64,000 nt of DNA, from IMG/VR virus record IMGVR_UViG_3300009181_000064, positions 1 through 64,000 of that record; one strand, written 5' to 3'. Positions 118 to 57,316 of this stretch are shown here, piece by piece. The notes under the pieces were generated by a model. The model did not search any database, was not told the origin of the DNA, and saw nothing but the letters and a program-made list of their open reading frames with translations. The position numbers and the translations under genes are program-made. How positions within the stretch are numbered: the stretch's first letter is position 1; each line of letters opens with the position of its first letter. The DNA is from a virus.

Positions 118-201
118 ATGAATCAAGAAACCATATATCAATACATTTGTGGTATACTAATTATTGTTGGTTTTGTAGTTTTTTATATTATTGCTGTATG
201 A
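118..201 (+). CDS. 27-aa small single-span membrane protein
   Basis: A 27-codon ORF starts at ATG 118 with a strong Shine-Dalgarno run (GGGGGAG, 107-113) five bases upstream and ends at TGA 199-201. After a short polar N-terminus (MNQETIYQY) the peptide is a continuous hydrophobic helix rich in Ile, Val and Phe ending in IIAV, so it is a candidate single-pass inner-membrane peptide. It follows the consensus promoter directly. Its last codons overlap the proposed P2 strand of the tmRNA acceptor piece (191-196), so either the RNA is processed from the same transcript or that pairing is wrong. Function unknown; too short for any family assignment. Confidence 0.5.
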   Translation: MNQETIYQYICGILIIVGFVVFYIIAV

Positions 202-253
202 AGTAAAGAGAAAGACGTCTTGGACGCGGGTGCGAATCCCGCCAGGTCCACCA

Positions 254-327
254 AAGTATACTATAAATGAGGTCGTAGCGGTTTGTAAAAACTTTAGTAC
301 ATACCTTAGATAATAGTATACTTTATT
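254..327 (+). other. tmRNA intervening segment with long hairpin
   Basis: This segment joins the CCA end to the 5' end of the coding piece in the precursor and would be removed. AAGTATACTAT 254-264 is exactly complementary to ATAGTATACTT 313-323 (11 bp). It therefore extends the 7-bp acceptor stem into one long helix interrupted only by the ACCA/TATT bulge, a likely processing substrate for host RNases. Confidence 0.7.
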
Positions 328-412
328 GGGCCTGAAATAGATTCGACAGGGCAGCAAGTAACAGAATGGACAGCACATCAGCAACGATGTAAAAAGAAGA
401 AAAAAAGTAAAC

Positions 413-445
413 GCAAACGACTCACAGTTCGCTTTAGCCGCCTAA
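413..445 (+). other. tmRNA tag reading frame ANDSQFALAA-stop
   Basis: From the resume codon GCA at 413 the frame reads ANDSQFALAA and stops at TAA 443-445. The ALAA end is the usual degron recognised by ClpXP and related proteases. E. coli has ANDENYALAA, so only the central three residues differ. The short beta/gamma-like tag is the main clue to host class. Confidence 0.85.
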
Positions 446-527
446 ACTCGGCTTAGGGTTTCGATAGGTTTCCTCGTAACAGAATAACCTATCATTTTAC
501 ACACTCATCACACACAAGGAGATTAAT

Positions 528-2202: not shown

Positions 2203-2876
2203 TGTCTTTAGTATGGGATAAAATGATTCCATTGTCTCAAAATATTCTTGAGACTTTGGAACAAACCACAGATGATGAGCTAAAATACACTGCGGAACAA
2301 GGTAACGGATATCTTTGGGAAAATTATATTTTTACTTCTCGCAATTATCGTCGCGCGCATGTAGAAATTGTTGATGCACGAGAAGCAAAAAAGATCTGGG
2401 TTATGCACATGACAATTTTTCCAGAGTTAGATGACCCTACTCCAATCTTTGGTTTTGACGTAGTTTGCGGGGCTAATAAAATTACAGGCGCATTCCATGA
2501 TTTTTCTAAAAACGGAAATTGTGATCTATATACTTGGTTCATTGACCGTTCATCTAAATTAGAATGGAATAAACCAAGGGTGTTGCCTGATTGGGCAACT
2601 CAAATTTTTAGTCCCGGCATGATTGCGGCAGGTAATATATCCGAAGAAGAAGAATTGGACAAATTATCCGATCTAGCTATTGAAAGCTTACACGTTTACC
2701 TATATAATGTAGGACAAGCGGATAAAATCGGAGAATCATACAAAGAGAAATATAATAACTATTGTAAGTTTCAAAAGATGAATCCGCATACGCCAGCAAT
2801 GATGATTAACTTAGGCATCGACGAAACGGTGTTTAGAAACTTTATGGATGAAATCTTATTTCCAGAAATCGAATGA
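2202..2876 (+). CDS. ferredoxin-dependent bilin reductase (PcyX/PebS-like)
   Basis: A 224-aa member of the HY2/ferredoxin-dependent bilin reductase family, which reduces biliverdin to phycobilins. Family signatures: PIFGFDVVCGANKITG (81-96), FHDFS with the presumed catalytic Asp100, LEWNKPRVLPDWATQIFSPG (120-139) and a C-terminal block NNYCKFQKMNPHTP (185-198) ending in EILFPE. The length suits PcyA/PebS/PcyX. Which bilin it makes (phycoerythrobilin, phycocyanobilin or another) cannot be read from sequence alone. It overlaps the heme oxygenase upstream, which supplies biliverdin, and gp33 downstream (ATGA, 2873-2876). No phycobiliprotein or phytochrome is seen in the window to accept the product. 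Confidence 0.88.
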   Translation: MSLVWDKMIPLSQNILETLEQTTDDELKYTAEQGNGYLWENYIFTSRNYRRAHVEIVDAREAKKIWVMHMTIFPELDDPTPIFGFDVVCGANKITGAFHDFSKNGNCDLYTWFIDRSSKLEWNKPRVLPDWATQIFSPGMIAAGNISEEEELDKLSDLAIESLHVYLYNVGQADKIGESYKEKYNNYCKFQKMNPHTPAMMINLGIDETVFRNFMDEILFPEIE

Positions 2877-3151
2877 TAGAAATGTTAGAACCAGAAACAA
2901 ATGAGACATTAACCGATGCTCTAATTATTACTAAGAGATTTAGATCTCCAAATGAATTTTCATTATACATTGAAGAAAAAGTATTACAAGACTCAATTGG
3001 ATATATGGATGCAGTAATTGCGTATTGTAACGATGTCGATATCGATGTTGAAGCAGTTACAAAACTAATTAATCAATCTCTTAAAGATAAAATTCAAATT
3101 GAGGCTGAAGATCAAAATTATATGCGATCAAGGGGCAAATTGCCGTTATGA
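2873..3151 (+). CDS. 33: late-transcription coactivator gp33
   Basis: A 92-aa homologue of T4 gp33, the coactivator that bridges host RNA polymerase and the sliding clamp during late transcription. The core FSLYIEEKVLQDSIGYMDAV is followed by a second helix and the typical C-terminal end GKLPL. It overlaps the bilin reductase (4 bp) and gp59 (4 bp); the 33-59-32 gene order is the T4 order. It works with gp55, encoded at 48.9-49.5 kb, on TATAAATA promoters. The N-terminal 18 residues are poorly conserved and the start could be MLEPE at 2882. Confidence 0.8.
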   Translation: MIEMLEPETNETLTDALIITKRFRSPNEFSLYIEEKVLQDSIGYMDAVIAYCNDVDIDVEAVTKLINQSLKDKIQIEAEDQNYMRSRGKLPL

Positions 3152-3756
3152 TAATGGATGAATTTTCAGTTTACAAAATGTATATTGCGCTTAAACTACA
3201 TTTTACAACAGATGCGTATGATGTTATTAAACAAAAAGGCAGAGTACGTGCAAGCAGACAAGCGTTTGCTAAAAGAACCGATTTGTTCTCTATTAGAAAA
3301 ATTTCAAAGAATTATTCGGATGAAGAAGTTGCAAATTTTTTAATTGCTAATTTTGTCTCAGGTGACCGATGGGGCGGAATGTTTGATACGGAAGCGGGTC
3401 AACGATACCAAATGTGGAAGAAGAAAATTGAGAGTTTATCTTACAATTTTACGCAAGATTTGGATAATTTAATTCAGGAAATAGATGATTCTGGATTAAA
3501 ATTTAATGATATTTTCACCGTATCTAAAGGGCAACACCCATATATAATAAAAGCCTTTTTAAGAAAAACTATTAGTATAGAGACATTAGTAATTCTTGAG
3601 AAACTTAATGGGTTTGTTGAAATTTATGATAAAGAAATTAGTGACACAGTGGTGTGGCCTGATGTCTCTAGACTCATTAAAAAATATAAACCGTTTCTAA
3701 TTTTAGACTTGGAAAAATACGATGGAATCTTTAGACGCCGAATTAGTGCAATCTAA
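3148..3756 (+). CDS. 59: DNA helicase loader gp59
   Basis: A 202-aa homologue of T4 gp59, which binds forked DNA and gp32 and loads the gp41 replicative helicase. The N-terminal block VYKMYIALKLHF...YDVIKQKGRVRASRQAFAKR aligns well with T4 gp59 (VYKLYLMIKQHM...YDVIKY), and VVWPDVSRLIKKYK matches its C-terminal domain. It starts by ATGA overlap with gp33. A second ATG two codons in (3154) is possible. The last 35 bases overlap the coiled-coil ORF at 3722. Confidence 0.9.
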   Translation: MIMDEFSVYKMYIALKLHFTTDAYDVIKQKGRVRASRQAFAKRTDLFSIRKISKNYSDEEVANFLIANFVSGDRWGGMFDTEAGQRYQMWKKKIESLSYNFTQDLDNLIQEIDDSGLKFNDIFTVSKGQHPYIIKAFLRKTISIETLVILEKLNGFVEIYDKEISDTVVWPDVSRLIKKYKPFLILDLEKYDGIFRRRISAI

Positions 3757-3969: not shown

Positions 3970-4158
3970 ATGAATAAAACTAATAAGGGCGATTGGTACG
4001 ATCGCGAGAAAAAGATACGCCGAGTTGAAAAGGGTACCTCAAAAATTGACAAACATCGAAAGATTATATATAATGTAGCATCATTGAAAAAAGACGATGA
4101 TGTGTTTGATGAATTTCTAGATTATGCATACGTTAATCAAAAAAATAAACGACGTTAA
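3970..4158 (+). CDS. 62-aa charged hypothetical protein
   Basis: A short, highly charged ORF (many Lys, Arg and Asp) with a basic N-terminal half and an acidic middle (KKDDDVFDEFLDYAY), with no recognisable motif. A consensus sigma70 promoter for gp32 lies inside it (4046-4074), so part of its sequence may be constrained by regulation. Coding status is plausible but not certain. Confidence 0.5.
   Translation: MNKTNKGDWYDREKKIRRVEKGTSKIDKHRKIIYNVASLKKDDDVFDEFLDYAYVNQKNKRR
4046..4074 (+). promoter_or_regulatory. consensus sigma70 promoter for gp32
   Basis: TTGACA 4046-4051, a 17-bp spacer and TATAAT 4069-4074 form a perfect promoter inside the small ORF at 3970-4158. It points at gp32, whose start is about 120 bp downstream, and would let gp32 be expressed strongly and independently of gp33-gp59. 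Confidence 0.8.
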
Positions 4159-4196: not shown

Positions 4197-5117
4197 ATGG
4201 CTTATACTTCACTATCTGATCTACGCAAATCTCGCGGAGGCTTCGATTCATTAATGAAAGAAGTCGAAAAGATCGCAAACCCCCAATCCGATTCTAAAAA
4301 ATCAGACGATCGCTTCTGGCAACCAGAAGTTGATAAAGCAGGTAACGGCTATGCTGTTATTCGCTTCTTGGCTCCACCTAAAGGTGAAGATTTGCCGTTT
4401 GTTCGTGTTTGGAATCACGGATTTCAGGGCCCTACAGGTAAATGGTACATCGAAAATTCGTTGACCACTATCGGTAAACAAGACCCAGTTTCAGAACTCA
4501 ATACTGAATTGTGGAACTCAGGTTCAGAAGCAAATAAAGAAGTTGCTCGCAAACAAAAGCGCAAGTTGACATACTACGCTAACATTCTTGTTGTTAAAGA
4601 TCCATCTCGCCCAGACAATGAAGGCAAAGTTTTCTTGTTTAAATTCGGCAAGAAAATTTGGGACAAGATTAAAGACATGGCTGATCCTCAGTTTGAAGAT
4701 GAGAAACCAGTTAATGTTTTTGACTTTGACACTGGCGCAAACTTCAAGTTAAAGATTCGCAATGTTGAGGGTTATCGTAATTATGATAAGTCTGAATTCG
4801 AATCAACAAGCCCTATCTCTAATGAAGATTCAGTCATTGAAGATATTTGGAGCAAACAACATTCTTTGACAGCATTCTTAGATGCTAAGAACTTTAAATC
4901 ATATGATGATTTGAAGAAAAAACTTACTATGGTTCTTGCTGCAGGCGCACCCCTGGTAAAAGCTGCAGAAGATATTGATTTAGATGAAAACGTTGGAACA
5001 AAACCAACACAAGCATCCGCCCCTCGTGCATCAATTCCTACTCCTAAAAAGGATGTAGACTTTGATGACGATGATGAATCACTATCATACTTTGCTAAAT
5101 TAGCAAGCGATGACTAA
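4197..5117 (+). CDS. 32: single-stranded DNA-binding protein gp32
   Basis: A 306-aa homologue of T4 gp32, which coats single-stranded DNA in replication, recombination and repair. The N-terminus carries the basic LAST-like cooperativity motif (KSRGGF, 11-16), followed by the core DKAGNGYAVIRFLAPPKG and GKWYIENSLTTIG. The C-terminus is strongly acidic (DFDDDDE) as needed for partner binding. T4 gp32 holds zinc through three Cys and one His; no cysteines occur in the corresponding segment here, as in gp32 of marine T4-like phages. A ribosome binding site (AAAGGAA, 4186-4192) precedes ATG 4197, and a strong promoter lies upstream. Confidence 0.95.
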   Translation: MAYTSLSDLRKSRGGFDSLMKEVEKIANPQSDSKKSDDRFWQPEVDKAGNGYAVIRFLAPPKGEDLPFVRVWNHGFQGPTGKWYIENSLTTIGKQDPVSELNTELWNSGSEANKEVARKQKRKLTYYANILVVKDPSRPDNEGKVFLFKFGKKIWDKIKDMADPQFEDEKPVNVFDFDTGANFKLKIRNVEGYRNYDKSEFESTSPISNEDSVIEDIWSKQHSLTAFLDAKNFKSYDDLKKKLTMVLAAGAPLVKAAEDIDLDENVGTKPTQASAPRASIPTPKKDVDFDDDDESLSYFAKLASDD

Positions 5118-47076: not shown

Positions 47077-48560
47077 TGTCTGATATAAGAATAAGAAAAA
47101 AGAACGAAGTATACTTAAATGTTGATGCTGAACCTTCAATTGCTCAAGAATTGAACGATCACTTTTCATTTGAGGTTCCTGGTGCAAAATTTCACCCTCT
47201 TTATAGATCAAAGATGTGGGATGGTCGCGTGAGACTTTTTTCGATGTTCTCAAAAGAGTTATATGTTGGGTTAAAAGACTACGTAGAACATTTTGCCAAA
47301 GAGCGTGATTATACTGTAGATTATTCTGAATATGTTCATACTGCTGACCCATGCACTCTTGAAGAAATAAAAGAGTTTGTAAAAGAACTTAACATTGGGT
47401 CAAAGGGCGAACCTCTCGAAATGAGAGATTATCAGATTGATGCTGTTTACAAAGCAATTAGTGACGGCAGACGTTTGTTATTATCCCCTACTGGTTCGGG
47501 AAAATCATACATCATTTATTGCGTAATGCGTTGGCATGAAAAATATAGTAGACGTCAATTAATTTTAGTCCCTACTACTTCGCTTGTTGAACAAATGTAT
47601 TCTGATTTTCAAGATTACTCTTGTTTAAATGGTTGGAAAACATCTAATCATTGTCATCGCATCTACGGCGGCCATGAAAAATCTAATGAGTATGATGTTG
47701 TTATTAGTACTTGGCAATCGTTATATAAGTTACCTAAAAAATTCTTTGATGATTTTCAGGCAATTTATGGAGATGAAGCGCATTTGTTTAAAGCCAAATC
47801 ACTAACAGGTATTCTAAATAAATGCCCCGGTGCTCCTTATCGTATAGGTACTACTGGAACATTAGATGGAACGCAGACACATAAGTTAGTTCTTGAAGGA
47901 TTATTTGGTCCCGTTTATAAAGTTACTACAACTAAGAAACTTATTGCGAATAAAACTTTAGCTGACCTGCAAATATATAATTTAATATTAGATTATTCGG
48001 ATGAGATTAAAAAGGCACTTAAAGGAAAGACATATCAAGAAGAAATGGATTTTCTAGTACAGCATGAACCTCGGAATAAATTTATTCGTAATTTGACTCT
48101 AAAGCAAGAAGGCAATAGTCTTGTCCTATTTCAGTATGTGGAAAAACACGGTAAAAATCTATATCAAATGATTAATGATAAAGCTGAAAATCGAAAGGTG
48201 TTTTTTGTTTATGGCGGGACAGATACGGAACAAAGAGAACAAATTCGAGCATTGACAGAGAAGGAGAATAATGCTATAATAGTAGCATCATATGGAACTT
48301 TCTCAACAGGTATAAATATTAAAAACCTACATAATATTATTTTTGCATCTCCTTCTAAATCTCGAATTAGAAATTTACAATCGATTGGCAGGGGATTGAG
48401 AACAAGTGAAACTAAAAGTAGTTGTACCTTATATGATATAGGCGATGATTTGACTTGGAAGTCTAAAAAGAATTATACTTTATTACACATGATAGAACGA
48501 ATCAAAATCTATAACGATGAACATTTTGAATATAAACTAATAAAAGTAACCCTACAATGA
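47076..48560 (+). CDS. uvsW: UvsW ATP-dependent helicase
   Basis: A 494-aa homologue of T4 UvsW, an SF2 helicase that acts on branched DNA and R-loops and helps the switch from origin to recombination-dependent replication. Walker A LSPTGSGKS lies at about residue 137, DEAH-box YGDEAHLF at about 232, and motif VI QSIGRGLR near the C-terminus. The N-terminal domain has GAKFHPLYRSKMWDGRVRLF. A perfect sigma70 promoter for downstream genes lies inside it (48252-48280). Confidence 0.95.
   Translation: MSDIRIRKKNEVYLNVDAEPSIAQELNDHFSFEVPGAKFHPLYRSKMWDGRVRLFSMFSKELYVGLKDYVEHFAKERDYTVDYSEYVHTADPCTLEEIKEFVKELNIGSKGEPLEMRDYQIDAVYKAISDGRRLLLSPTGSGKSYIIYCVMRWHEKYSRRQLILVPTTSLVEQMYSDFQDYSCLNGWKTSNHCHRIYGGHEKSNEYDVVISTWQSLYKLPKKFFDDFQAIYGDEAHLFKAKSLTGILNKCPGAPYRIGTTGTLDGTQTHKLVLEGLFGPVYKVTTTKKLIANKTLADLQIYNLILDYSDEIKKALKGKTYQEEMDFLVQHEPRNKFIRNLTLKQEGNSLVLFQYVEKHGKNLYQMINDKAENRKVFFVYGGTDTEQREQIRALTEKENNAIIVASYGTFSTGINIKNLHNIIFASPSKSRIRNLQSIGRGLRTSETKSSCTLYDIGDDLTWKSKKNYTLLHMIERIKIYNDEHFEYKLIKVTLQ
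48252..48280 (+). promoter_or_regulatory. consensus sigma70 promoter inside uvsW
   Basis: TTGACA 48252-48257, 17-bp spacer, TATAAT 48275-48280, all inside the uvsW reading frame, about 280 bp upstream of the 138-aa gene and gp55. It would give these two genes early expression independent of the late promoters. Confidence 0.7.
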
Positions 48561-52064: not shown

Positions 52065-53422
52065 AAACTTATAAAAAGAGAATTGCATTTTGTATTAGTG
52101 ATCAGCATCTAGTGCCTCACGGTGGTATTGGGCAATTTGCCAAAGGGTTTGTTGAGATGGCAAATAAAATTAACTGGAAGGTTGATATTATTACAGACAA
52201 ACCCACAACAAATGACTTTGCCAAATTAGTTGAATCATTAGGTGCAAATTTAATTGCACCCAAAAATGCTTTGTCATATAAAAATCATACCGGCACCTTT
52301 GCATTTACTGATTCAATTAACTTTGAAAAGATGATTAACTTTCGTGATGCTGTTATGAATGCGTTTCATACTAACATTTATGACATGGTTGTCTGCAACT
52401 CTTTAGAAGCAATGCCTGCAGTATTAAGTTTTGATCTTAATAATTACATCCCCGTAGTTCTTTACACGCATGAAGAAAGTATGGTATTCCGTGATACGAG
52501 AAAATTTAAAGGTGTGTTTTTAGAGAGTTGTAATGAATTCTTTAATAATTTAATGACAGTTGAAAGTTGTCATATTGGCACACAATCTGCACGAAATGTT
52601 TCTGAAATTAAGAACAATGGCGGAGTAAATGTAGAGCATTTGAGTATGCCTATGTCTGAAAGAGAATTACTCACAAGCAATTATGCAGAACGAAAAGGTG
52701 TCTTGTATATTGGTCGTTGGGAAGATCGCAAAAATCCAGAAGCATTTTTAAAAGTAATTAAAGAGACTGGATTGCCTGCAAAGATTATGACGAATGTAAA
52801 CGGCAAAAAGAAATTTGAAGCTCGTCTTGCAGAACTCGGCATAACAGATTATGAGATTAAAGCTAGCATTGTTGGCAAAGAAAAAGTTGACTTTATTAAA
52901 TCTGCAAAGGTACACTTTAATCCGTCTCTAAGAGAAAATTACCCGTTCACATTTTTTGAATGTCTTGGACATATGCCTTGTATTGTTATTGACAAATCTG
53001 AATGGGTAACTAATTTTGATAACAAATATTATATTCGTTTGCCCCTAAATGAGGTTGCTGAAGTATTAAAAAATGAATATAATGCTGATCGAAAACAACG
53101 CAACCATGATGCGTTACAGTATGTAAAACATTTGGATTTTCAAACATCTGATAGATGGAAAAAGTTCCTTTCAGGATACAAACAAACATCTTTAGCAAGA
53201 TCAGACTCCGCAAAAATTAATGATTATTCTGAAATCAAATATGCAGACTTTATTAAAATCCTAAATAGGACACAATTAGCTATAGATGATGTCAAAAGTA
53301 TATTGACAAATAAGTCTAAATATAATATAATCTATACAGACAACGACACATATTTATCTAAAGATCCAAATTTTATACCAAAAGAAGAAGCAACTTCTTC
53401 ATTAGAAAGCCTGTTTGCATGA
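52061..53422 (+). CDS. GT-B glycosyltransferase with clamp-like tail
   Basis: A 453-aa protein. The first half has AFCISDQHLVPHGGIGQFAK, a sugar-acceptor half of a GT-B fold; the second has GVLYIGRWEDRKNPEAFLKV and SLRENYPFTFFECLGHMPCI, the nucleotide-sugar-binding signature of GT4-like enzymes. After a disordered linker the protein ends SSLESLFA. That tail matches the C-terminus of the DpdA-like neighbour (SLEDLFA) and resembles the sliding-clamp-binding tails of T4 proteins such as gp55 (SLDFLYE). DNA or nucleotide glycosylation is therefore plausible. It overlaps dpdA by 4 bp (ATGA). Confidence 0.8.
   Translation: MKTYKKRIAFCISDQHLVPHGGIGQFAKGFVEMANKINWKVDIITDKPTTNDFAKLVESLGANLIAPKNALSYKNHTGTFAFTDSINFEKMINFRDAVMNAFHTNIYDMVVCNSLEAMPAVLSFDLNNYIPVVLYTHEESMVFRDTRKFKGVFLESCNEFFNNLMTVESCHIGTQSARNVSEIKNNGGVNVEHLSMPMSERELLTSNYAERKGVLYIGRWEDRKNPEAFLKVIKETGLPAKIMTNVNGKKKFEARLAELGITDYEIKASIVGKEKVDFIKSAKVHFNPSLRENYPFTFFECLGHMPCIVIDKSEWVTNFDNKYYIRLPLNEVAEVLKNEYNADRKQRNHDALQYVKHLDFQTSDRWKKFLSGYKQTSLARSDSAKINDYSEIKYADFIKILNRTQLAIDDVKSILTNKSKYNIIYTDNDTYLSKDPNFIPKEEATSSLESLFA
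53303..53331 (+). promoter_or_regulatory. consensus sigma70 promoter for dpdA
   Basis: TTGACA 53303-53308, 17-bp spacer, TATAAT 53326-53331, inside the 3' end of the glycosyltransferase gene and about 88 bp before dpdA. It provides an internal early promoter for the transglycosylase and the genes after it. Confidence 0.78.
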
Positions 53423-56316: not shown

Positions 56317-57316
56317 ATTAGTTGTAGTCACAGGTTCTGCCGGATATATTGGCGGCCAGACATGCATTGAATTAAAGAAAAAAGGTTATGAAGTTATTGG
56401 TATTGATAACAGACATAACGAACATCTTGATGCATTTCAAGATGAATATCTTCAGTGCGATTTTACAGATATGGAAGCATTTAGTCTGTATAAAAAGGTT
56501 TATCCTATAGCAATTATTCATTGTGCAGGAACAAGTCTTGTTGGTCCTAGTATGAAAAATCCTGGACAATATTTTCATAATAATGTATCTAAAACAAATT
56601 TACTTTTAGATTTTGTAGCAAAGCATATTCCAAAAACTAAAATTATTTTTAGTAGTAGCGCATCTGTATATGGTGAACCCAGGAACAAAACTCCTTTGAG
56701 AGAAAACGATAAAGTTGATCCTATCTCTCCATACGGCGAATCAAAATTAATGGTTGAACATTTGTTAGAATGGTATCATAGATGCCATAATATAAATTAT
56801 ACAGCATTTAGATATTTTAATGCTTGCGGCGCGGATGAAGATGGACATCACGGCCAAGAACCCGGTGCAACTCATATCTTTGCTAAACTATTTGAAGCAG
56901 TTAAAAACAAAACTGAATTCACTTTAAATGGTGCAGACTATAACACACCCGACGGAACTTGTATTAGAGATTATATTCATGTTCAAGATATTGCACTTGC
57001 ACACATAAAAGCTATTGACAAATCTAATCAAGGCATATATAATTTAGGGATGCTTCAGGGCCATTCTAATCTTCAAATTCAGTTATTAGTTGAAAAACTT
57101 ACTAATACTGAAATTGTTACATTTATTAACAGACGACGCGAAGGTGATCCTCCATCGTTAGTTGCTGATAGTACAATGTTTAAACGCATTGCTGGTTGGA
57201 CACCCAATTATAATATGGATGATATTTTAGAATCATTAAATAAATGGTACAACTCCCAGACATATGATGCTTTAACAAAACAGCGGTCTTACTCGAACAT
57301 TCACCCCGCTTTATAA
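56294..57316 (+). CDS. galE: UDP-glucose 4-epimerase-like GalE
   Basis: A 340-aa short-chain dehydrogenase-type epimerase. The Rossmann GSAGYIGGQT lies at the N-terminus, IFSSSASVYGEP and YGESKLMVEHLLEW supply the catalytic Ser-Tyr-Lys, and FRYFNACGAD, EPGATHIFA and DGTCIRDYIHVQDIALAH are typical of GalE. It interconverts UDP-glucose and UDP-galactose (or a related pair). Start at ATG 56294 (MFQQPSTKL) is preferred; an earlier ATG at 56246 lies deep inside the glycosyltransferase. It overlaps that gene by 23 bp. Confidence 0.88.
   Translation: MFQQPSTKLVVVTGSAGYIGGQTCIELKKKGYEVIGIDNRHNEHLDAFQDEYLQCDFTDMEAFSLYKKVYPIAIIHCAGTSLVGPSMKNPGQYFHNNVSKTNLLLDFVAKHIPKTKIIFSSSASVYGEPRNKTPLRENDKVDPISPYGESKLMVEHLLEWYHRCHNINYTAFRYFNACGADEDGHHGQEPGATHIFAKLFEAVKNKTEFTLNGADYNTPDGTCIRDYIHVQDIALAHIKAIDKSNQGIYNLGMLQGHSNLQIQLLVEKLTNTEIVTFINRRREGDPPSLVADSTMFKRIAGWTPNYNMDDILESLNKWYNSQTYDALTKQRSYSNIHPAL
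57015..57043 (+). promoter_or_regulatory. consensus sigma70 promoter inside galE
   Basis: TTGACA 57015-57020, 17-bp spacer, TATAAT 57038-57043, within galE. It would drive queD and the gp47-gp46 genes about 310 bp downstream. Confidence 0.6.

Follow-up and report, generated by a model that had tools for sequence, protein, structure and literature searches.

A permuted two-piece tmRNA gene with a near-core position in aquatic T4-like phages, and spacers that appear to nest protein genes in its relatives

Is the tmRNA gene carried by a T4-like phage a working part of its genome, or something that it picked up from a host? This question is raised by a permuted tmRNA gene at the left end of the window, which is the first 64 kb of the 71,228-base IMG/VR virus record IMGVR_UViG_3300009181_000064. 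Judged from its genes the window phage is T4-like: gp32, gp33, gp59, sheath, baseplate, and helicase genes are present, and the gp23-like major head protein is 68% identical to that of methylophage Melnitz and 65% identical to those of the pelagiphages Mosig and HTVC008M. The presence of a permuted tmRNA in a phage is not new, as one has already been published for Melnitz (PMC9004378); the same study found that two-piece forms make up 53 of 133 distinct phage tmRNA structures, 50 of them marine or aquatic.

A sequence-only reading of this DNA had proposed a phage-encoded permuted two-piece tmRNA at 191-493, and our results agree with it down to the coordinates. ARAGORN predicted a permuted tmRNA (tmRNA*) with the tag ANDSQFALAA, and a covariance search, which that reading had suggested as a check, gave clear matches to RF04321 (tmRNA_permuted; 192-445, 120.7 bits against a cut-off of 47, E 5e-23) and to RF01850 (beta_tmRNA; 139-499, 99.7 bits against a cut-off of 84). 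On these matches and on its anatomy, the region 192-494 (+ strand, as are all features below unless stated) is a circularly permuted, two-piece tmRNA gene. The predicted 3' (acceptor) piece at 192-253, a tRNA-like segment within both model matches, contains the T-arm (226-242), the acceptor 3' strand CAGGTCC (243-249), the discriminator A250, and an encoded CCA (251-253). It lies upstream of the predicted 5' piece (328-494), which consists of the acceptor strand, a linker, the mRNA-like region, and a terminal stem (463-470/486-493). Between the two is a 74-nt spacer (254-327), an intervening sequence predicted to be excised. The acceptor 5' strand GGGCCTG (328-334) pairs with 243-249 at seven of seven positions, the 7-bp pairing that had been noticed earlier, and includes a G3-U70 wobble, which is the alanine identity pair. 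The tag frame (413-445) begins at the resume codon GCA at 413, and its tag (413-442) has a degron end and is followed by a TAA stop (443-445); both ARAGORN and a codon table over relatives support this frame, and the match to RF01850 bears out the earlier description of the tag as short and beta-type. The ends of the spacer pair as an 11-bp helix (254-264 with 313-323) stacked on the acceptor stem, and the folded precursor has a z of -3.9, with 0 of 100 shuffles equally stable. Upstream, a motif match predicts a perfect sigma-70-type promoter (TTGACA-17-TATAAT) at 43-71, reading into the tmRNA locus. Five perfect TTGACA-N17-TATAAT motifs occur in the 64-kb window against 0.04 expected, and the other four are at 4046-4074 (upstream of gp32), 48252-48280, 53303-53331, and 57015-57043.

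Among cultured phages, the closest relative that has this gene near gp33-gp59-gp32 is Methylophilales phage Melnitz EXVC044M, whose ssrA (MZ577097.1, 45984-46436) is likewise a permuted two-piece tmRNA in a T4-like phage. It lies upstream of gp33-gp59-gp32 on the same strand, as in the window, and the Melnitz gene order is like that of the window lineage apart from inserted or missing genes. However, the Melnitz gene is best matched by the alpha-type model (106.7 bits) and carries the tag ANDNYVPVDYALAA, whereas the window gene fits the beta model and carries ANDSQFALAA. Melnitz also has a glutamine riboswitch just downstream of ssrA, while the window has no match to RF01739, although the Melnitz group is not defined by this riboswitch (PMC9004378). 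The permuted tmRNAs of betaproteobacteria (RF01850) are similar to the window gene in scoring over the same cut-off, in the short AND..FALAA tag, and in a related terminal stem-loop, but the window gene is phage-borne, leaves the last hairpin of the model unmatched, and has tag residues SQ that occur in no convincing bacterial contig. Permuted tmRNAs over the RF04321 cut-off, with 3' pieces 82-84% identical to that of the window, are also present in Xanthomonas phages Rb1 and X1 and in Stenotrophomonas phage vB_Sm_QDWS359, but their tags are unrelated (ANDDNFRPALRLAA, VAANDADYSVARYA, and ANDSVYAQAIAA). A BLASTN search with the window 5' piece against annotated phages gave no match even at E 1. 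The permuted tmRNAs of Rb1, X1, and vB_Sm_QDWS359 (L126, L127, and L128) are unannotated in their public records, and in L127 a reverse-strand hypothetical protein has been annotated across the gene.

We gathered relatives in two ways, by tag pattern and, separately and irrespective of tag, by gp32. A permuted tmRNA is present in 27 of the 28 gp32-anchored loci that extend at least 6 kb upstream; some of these loci are near-identical to each other. ARAGORN identified the tmRNA in 25, at 1.6-6 kb upstream of gp32 and on the same strand, and the covariance model recovered it in two more (L265 and L287); the sole exception, L290, had no tmRNA by either approach. The recurrent gene order, seen in many contigs collected by tag alone, is tmRNA, an 80-aa ORF, a cell wall hydrolase, in some cases a heme oxygenase and a bilin reductase, and then gp33, gp59, and gp32. 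In the window, the 80-aa ORF adjoins the tmRNA at 528-770; it has no Pfam or PHROG match, and tblastn finds it at 103 loci in the sets selected by tag. The other conserved neighbours are the cell wall hydrolase (PF07486; 833-1363) and genes for a gp33-like late-transcription coactivator (PF16805, phrog_254; 2873-3151), a gp59-like helicase loader (PF08993/PF08994, phrog_269; 3148-3756), and a gp32-like single-strand DNA-binding protein (phrog_224; 4197-5117), which served as the synteny anchor. Phage tmRNAs have until now been treated as sporadic captures, but in this aquatic T4-like lineage the gene appears to be nearly core and syntenic, which looks new. Because the gene order is conserved across the lineage, the tmRNA is an old resident rather than a recent capture. 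Permuted tmRNAs were previously reported in 17 of 47 contigs related to Melnitz, as a common but not defining feature (PMC9004378), and the near-core synteny found here extends that result.

The gene also bears marks of selection. The acceptor stem is fully paired (7/7) in 185 of 188 distinct phage sequences, although this proportion is partly circular, as sequences were extracted only when at least 6 of 7 acceptor pairs and 4 of 5 T-stem pairs formed. The circularity does not extend to the range of matching pair types: pair 4 is G-C or C-G, pair 5 is G-C, C-G, or A-T, and pair 6 is T-A, A-T, C-G, or G-C, while pair 3 is G-U in 187 of the sequences. Random re-pairing of strands between different genes, used as a control, gave 26%. 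The acceptor stem thus shows compensatory changes across relatives. The tag ends in LAA in 185 of the 188 sequences and its AND start is nearly constant, and codon variation is mostly at third positions or synonymous, or falls at residues 4-5. Both tag and stem are under selection.

The sequence-only reading had considered a permuted ssrA with a short ANDxxxALAA tag unusual, which does not hold: two-piece phage tmRNAs have been published (PMC9004378), the tag fits the beta model, and more than 100 IMG/VR contigs carry ANDSQFALAA and more than 100 carry AND[ED]xFALAA. The pattern AND[S/T]QFALAA is found in at least 119 IMG/VR contigs, at least 113 of them with S among the matches listed. The search of host genomes for a matching tag, also suggested by that reading, found no convincing match in bacteria: across 84,980 bacterial and archaeal species, scanned without a positive-control host tag, there were 0 exact matches to ANDSQFALAA, and the AND[S/T]QFALAA pattern occurred in one contig, as ANDTQFALAA. 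This contig is 3 kb long, encodes several tRNAs and a ClpP-like protein, and is part of a MAG from a small-genome order; it is most likely a mis-binned piece of a phage. Because the only match is in a mis-binned phage-like contig of an order with 0.4-1.1 Mb genomes, we rejected it as an indication of the host. A literature search for the string ANDSQFALAA returned nothing, and the tag, seen so far only in viruses, looks new. Tags vary among close relatives: in L256, the cell wall hydrolase, gp33, gp59, and gp32 are 92-96% identical to those of the window, yet the tag is ANDELFALAA and the inner 5' piece is different. The gp32-selected set likewise contains many distinct tags, nearly all ending in LAA. 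A single origin of the SQ tag was considered and rejected, as a weakly resolved tmRNA tree has at least 29 changes between SQ and not-SQ, a count in which recombination and tree error are unseparated. Together with the occurrence of the SQ tag on both alpha-like and beta-like scaffolds, these changes suggest that it was probably gained or exchanged repeatedly. As the tag diversifies at a fixed position, the lineage provides naturally occurring tag variants with which to test the benefit of trans-translation to a phage. In at least one sister group (L262, L263, and L264), the syntenic permuted tmRNA has the tag ANDNSYRMVA; as this tag is without the LAA degron, some members may not depend on degradation.

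The form of the gene, its pairing, the selection on tag and stem, its conserved position in the lineage, and the lack of smpB in the tested records are all observed here, and we consider it very probable that the window encodes a functional permuted two-piece phage ssrA that works with host enzymes. Transcription would start, probably early, at the consensus promoter at 43-71, and the precursor would fold with the spacer ends as a helix that stacks on the acceptor stem. The spacer would then be excised by host tRNA-processing enzymes, leaving a 3' piece of ~62 nt and a 5' piece of ~167 nt joined by the 7-bp acceptor stem. The G3-U70 wobble pair would allow charging by the host AlaRS, and host SmpB and EF-Tu would deliver the tmRNA to ribosomes stalled on the broken mRNAs that infection is expected to produce. 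The ribosome would resume at GCA 413 and add Ala and ANDSQFALAA, a ClpXP-type degron, and the tagged product would presumably be degraded. For the phage, the benefit may lie in the rescue of ribosomes on cut mRNAs, the clearing of fragments, and the recycling of amino acids. The absence of smpB from the window, noted earlier, extends to the whole 71,228-base record, in which SmpB had no match; SmpB was absent in 26 of 26 records, most of them fragments but including the complete Melnitz genome, while the controls were positive. The phage tmRNA therefore presumably uses host SmpB. ClpP-family proteins were found in 13 of the 26 records, six being strong full-length matches in large records, and none was found in the record of the window phage.

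A different role would be mainly anti-host, with the phage tmRNA competing for SmpB or tagging host proteins for breakdown and amino-acid recycling. This has been proposed for Melnitz (PMC9004378), and the CDS-less tmRNA of phage DS6A is reported to inhibit endogenous tmRNA in E. coli (PMC11915505); the early-type promoter at 43-71 and a tag not seen in sequenced bacteria are also consistent with it. However, a pure decoy would not need a tag frame, yet the frame is kept under selection, and we regard a mainly anti-host role as unlikely. Far less probable, and disfavoured by our data, is that the phage carries a functionless ssrA taken over from a host. Bacterial ssrA often serves as a site of integration (PMC9004378, PMC11915505), and the difference in tag and inner domain between close relatives could be read in this way, but the conserved position in the T4-like lineage, the compensatory stem changes and synonymous tag changes, and the absence of the tag from sequenced bacteria all argue against a mere passenger. 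A chance tRNA-like sequence or an assembly artefact is refuted by a score so far over the cut-off and by the same gene in independent contigs.

Beyond its likely role as a functional ssrA, the gene has relatives in which the spacer looks like a nest for protein genes. An ATG-initiated ORF covers at least 75% of the spacer in 21 of 30 distinct spacers of at least 120 nt; 0.5 were expected from mononucleotide shuffles, and the antisense strand had 0. Matches over Pfam cut-offs include DUF2061 in L227 (3.5e-20), Oxidored-like in L085 (4.3e-10), PGDYG in L217, CxxCxxCC in L219, and a 146-aa SNase in L287 (2.6e-12). In homologous pairs the dN/dS of spacer codons is mostly 0.01-0.35 with a maximum of 0.5, saturated pairs being uninformative. 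It is well supported by these comparisons that the spacers of relatives are protein-coding and under purifying selection. Nested genes also occur in the spacers of L256, L030, L304, L014, and others, and small membrane and Zn-ribbon-like peptides are among their products. The window's own spacer (254-327) encodes no protein. A 27-aa membrane-like micropeptide ORF (MNQETIYQYICGILIIVGFVVFYIIAV; 118-201) precedes it, with a TGA stop (199-201) inside the tmRNA 3' piece. Its homologues include peptides encoded in the spacers of L158, L049, and L111 (phmmer E 2.5e-6, 6.3e-6, and 1.9e-5); the same small gene precedes the tmRNA in the window and lies within it in other phages. Peptides of a second family (MFENWHW...) are likewise found before the tmRNA in some relatives and inside it in others. 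In L060, L083, L106, L109, L110, and L179, a nuclease-like ORF (PD-(D/E)XK-looking, by eye) ends at a TGA in the tmRNA 3' piece.

The nested start codon is usually ~10-14 nt past the CCA and is preceded by a Shine-Dalgarno-like purine run. In 34 of 40 cases the final 18 nt of the spacer can pair with the whole of this run, compared to 26% with shuffled ends, and the helix that joins the two halves would therefore also cover the ribosome-binding site. In the Oxidored-like group, an uninterrupted frame runs from an ATG in the 3' piece through the T-arm and CCA and on into the 5' piece. Stop codons fall within the mature 5' piece in 23 of 53 cases; this is no more often than the reading frame would give, and we rejected the idea that stops are selected for there. 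We infer from this arrangement that tmRNA maturation and translation of the nested protein may be coupled. It is conceivable, though we hold it only tentatively, that the spacers of aquatic phages are a regular nesting site for small genes, in which a ribosome-binding site within the joining helix couples tmRNA processing to the synthesis of nested or overlapping proteins. If this is true, maturation would make the spacer a nonstop message for the tmRNA itself in those cases where the stop falls in the mature 5' piece. We found no report of ORFs in permuted tmRNA spacers in the literature searched, which is not proof of absence, and in a survey of 97,179 tmRNA sequences a tRNA gene and a repetitive element are the only contents named for permuted intervening sequences (PMC11915505). 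The use of the spacer as a nest for protein genes in relatives looks new, and tmRNA annotation may hide many such small proteins.

Two other gene clusters were observed in these phage contigs. Near the right end of contig L125 (2861-5977; record 65860-68976), there are genes that, judged by eye, resemble those for GDP-mannose dehydratase and GDP-fucose synthase, with an aminotransferase-like gene after them. In the window, a heme oxygenase gene (PF01126) lies beside that of a ferredoxin-dependent bilin reductase closest to PcyX (PDB 5owg, E 1e-46) at 1675-2876, placing a bilin pathway between the tmRNA and gp33 of a T4-like phage, as is also the case in the relatives L262, L085, and L256.
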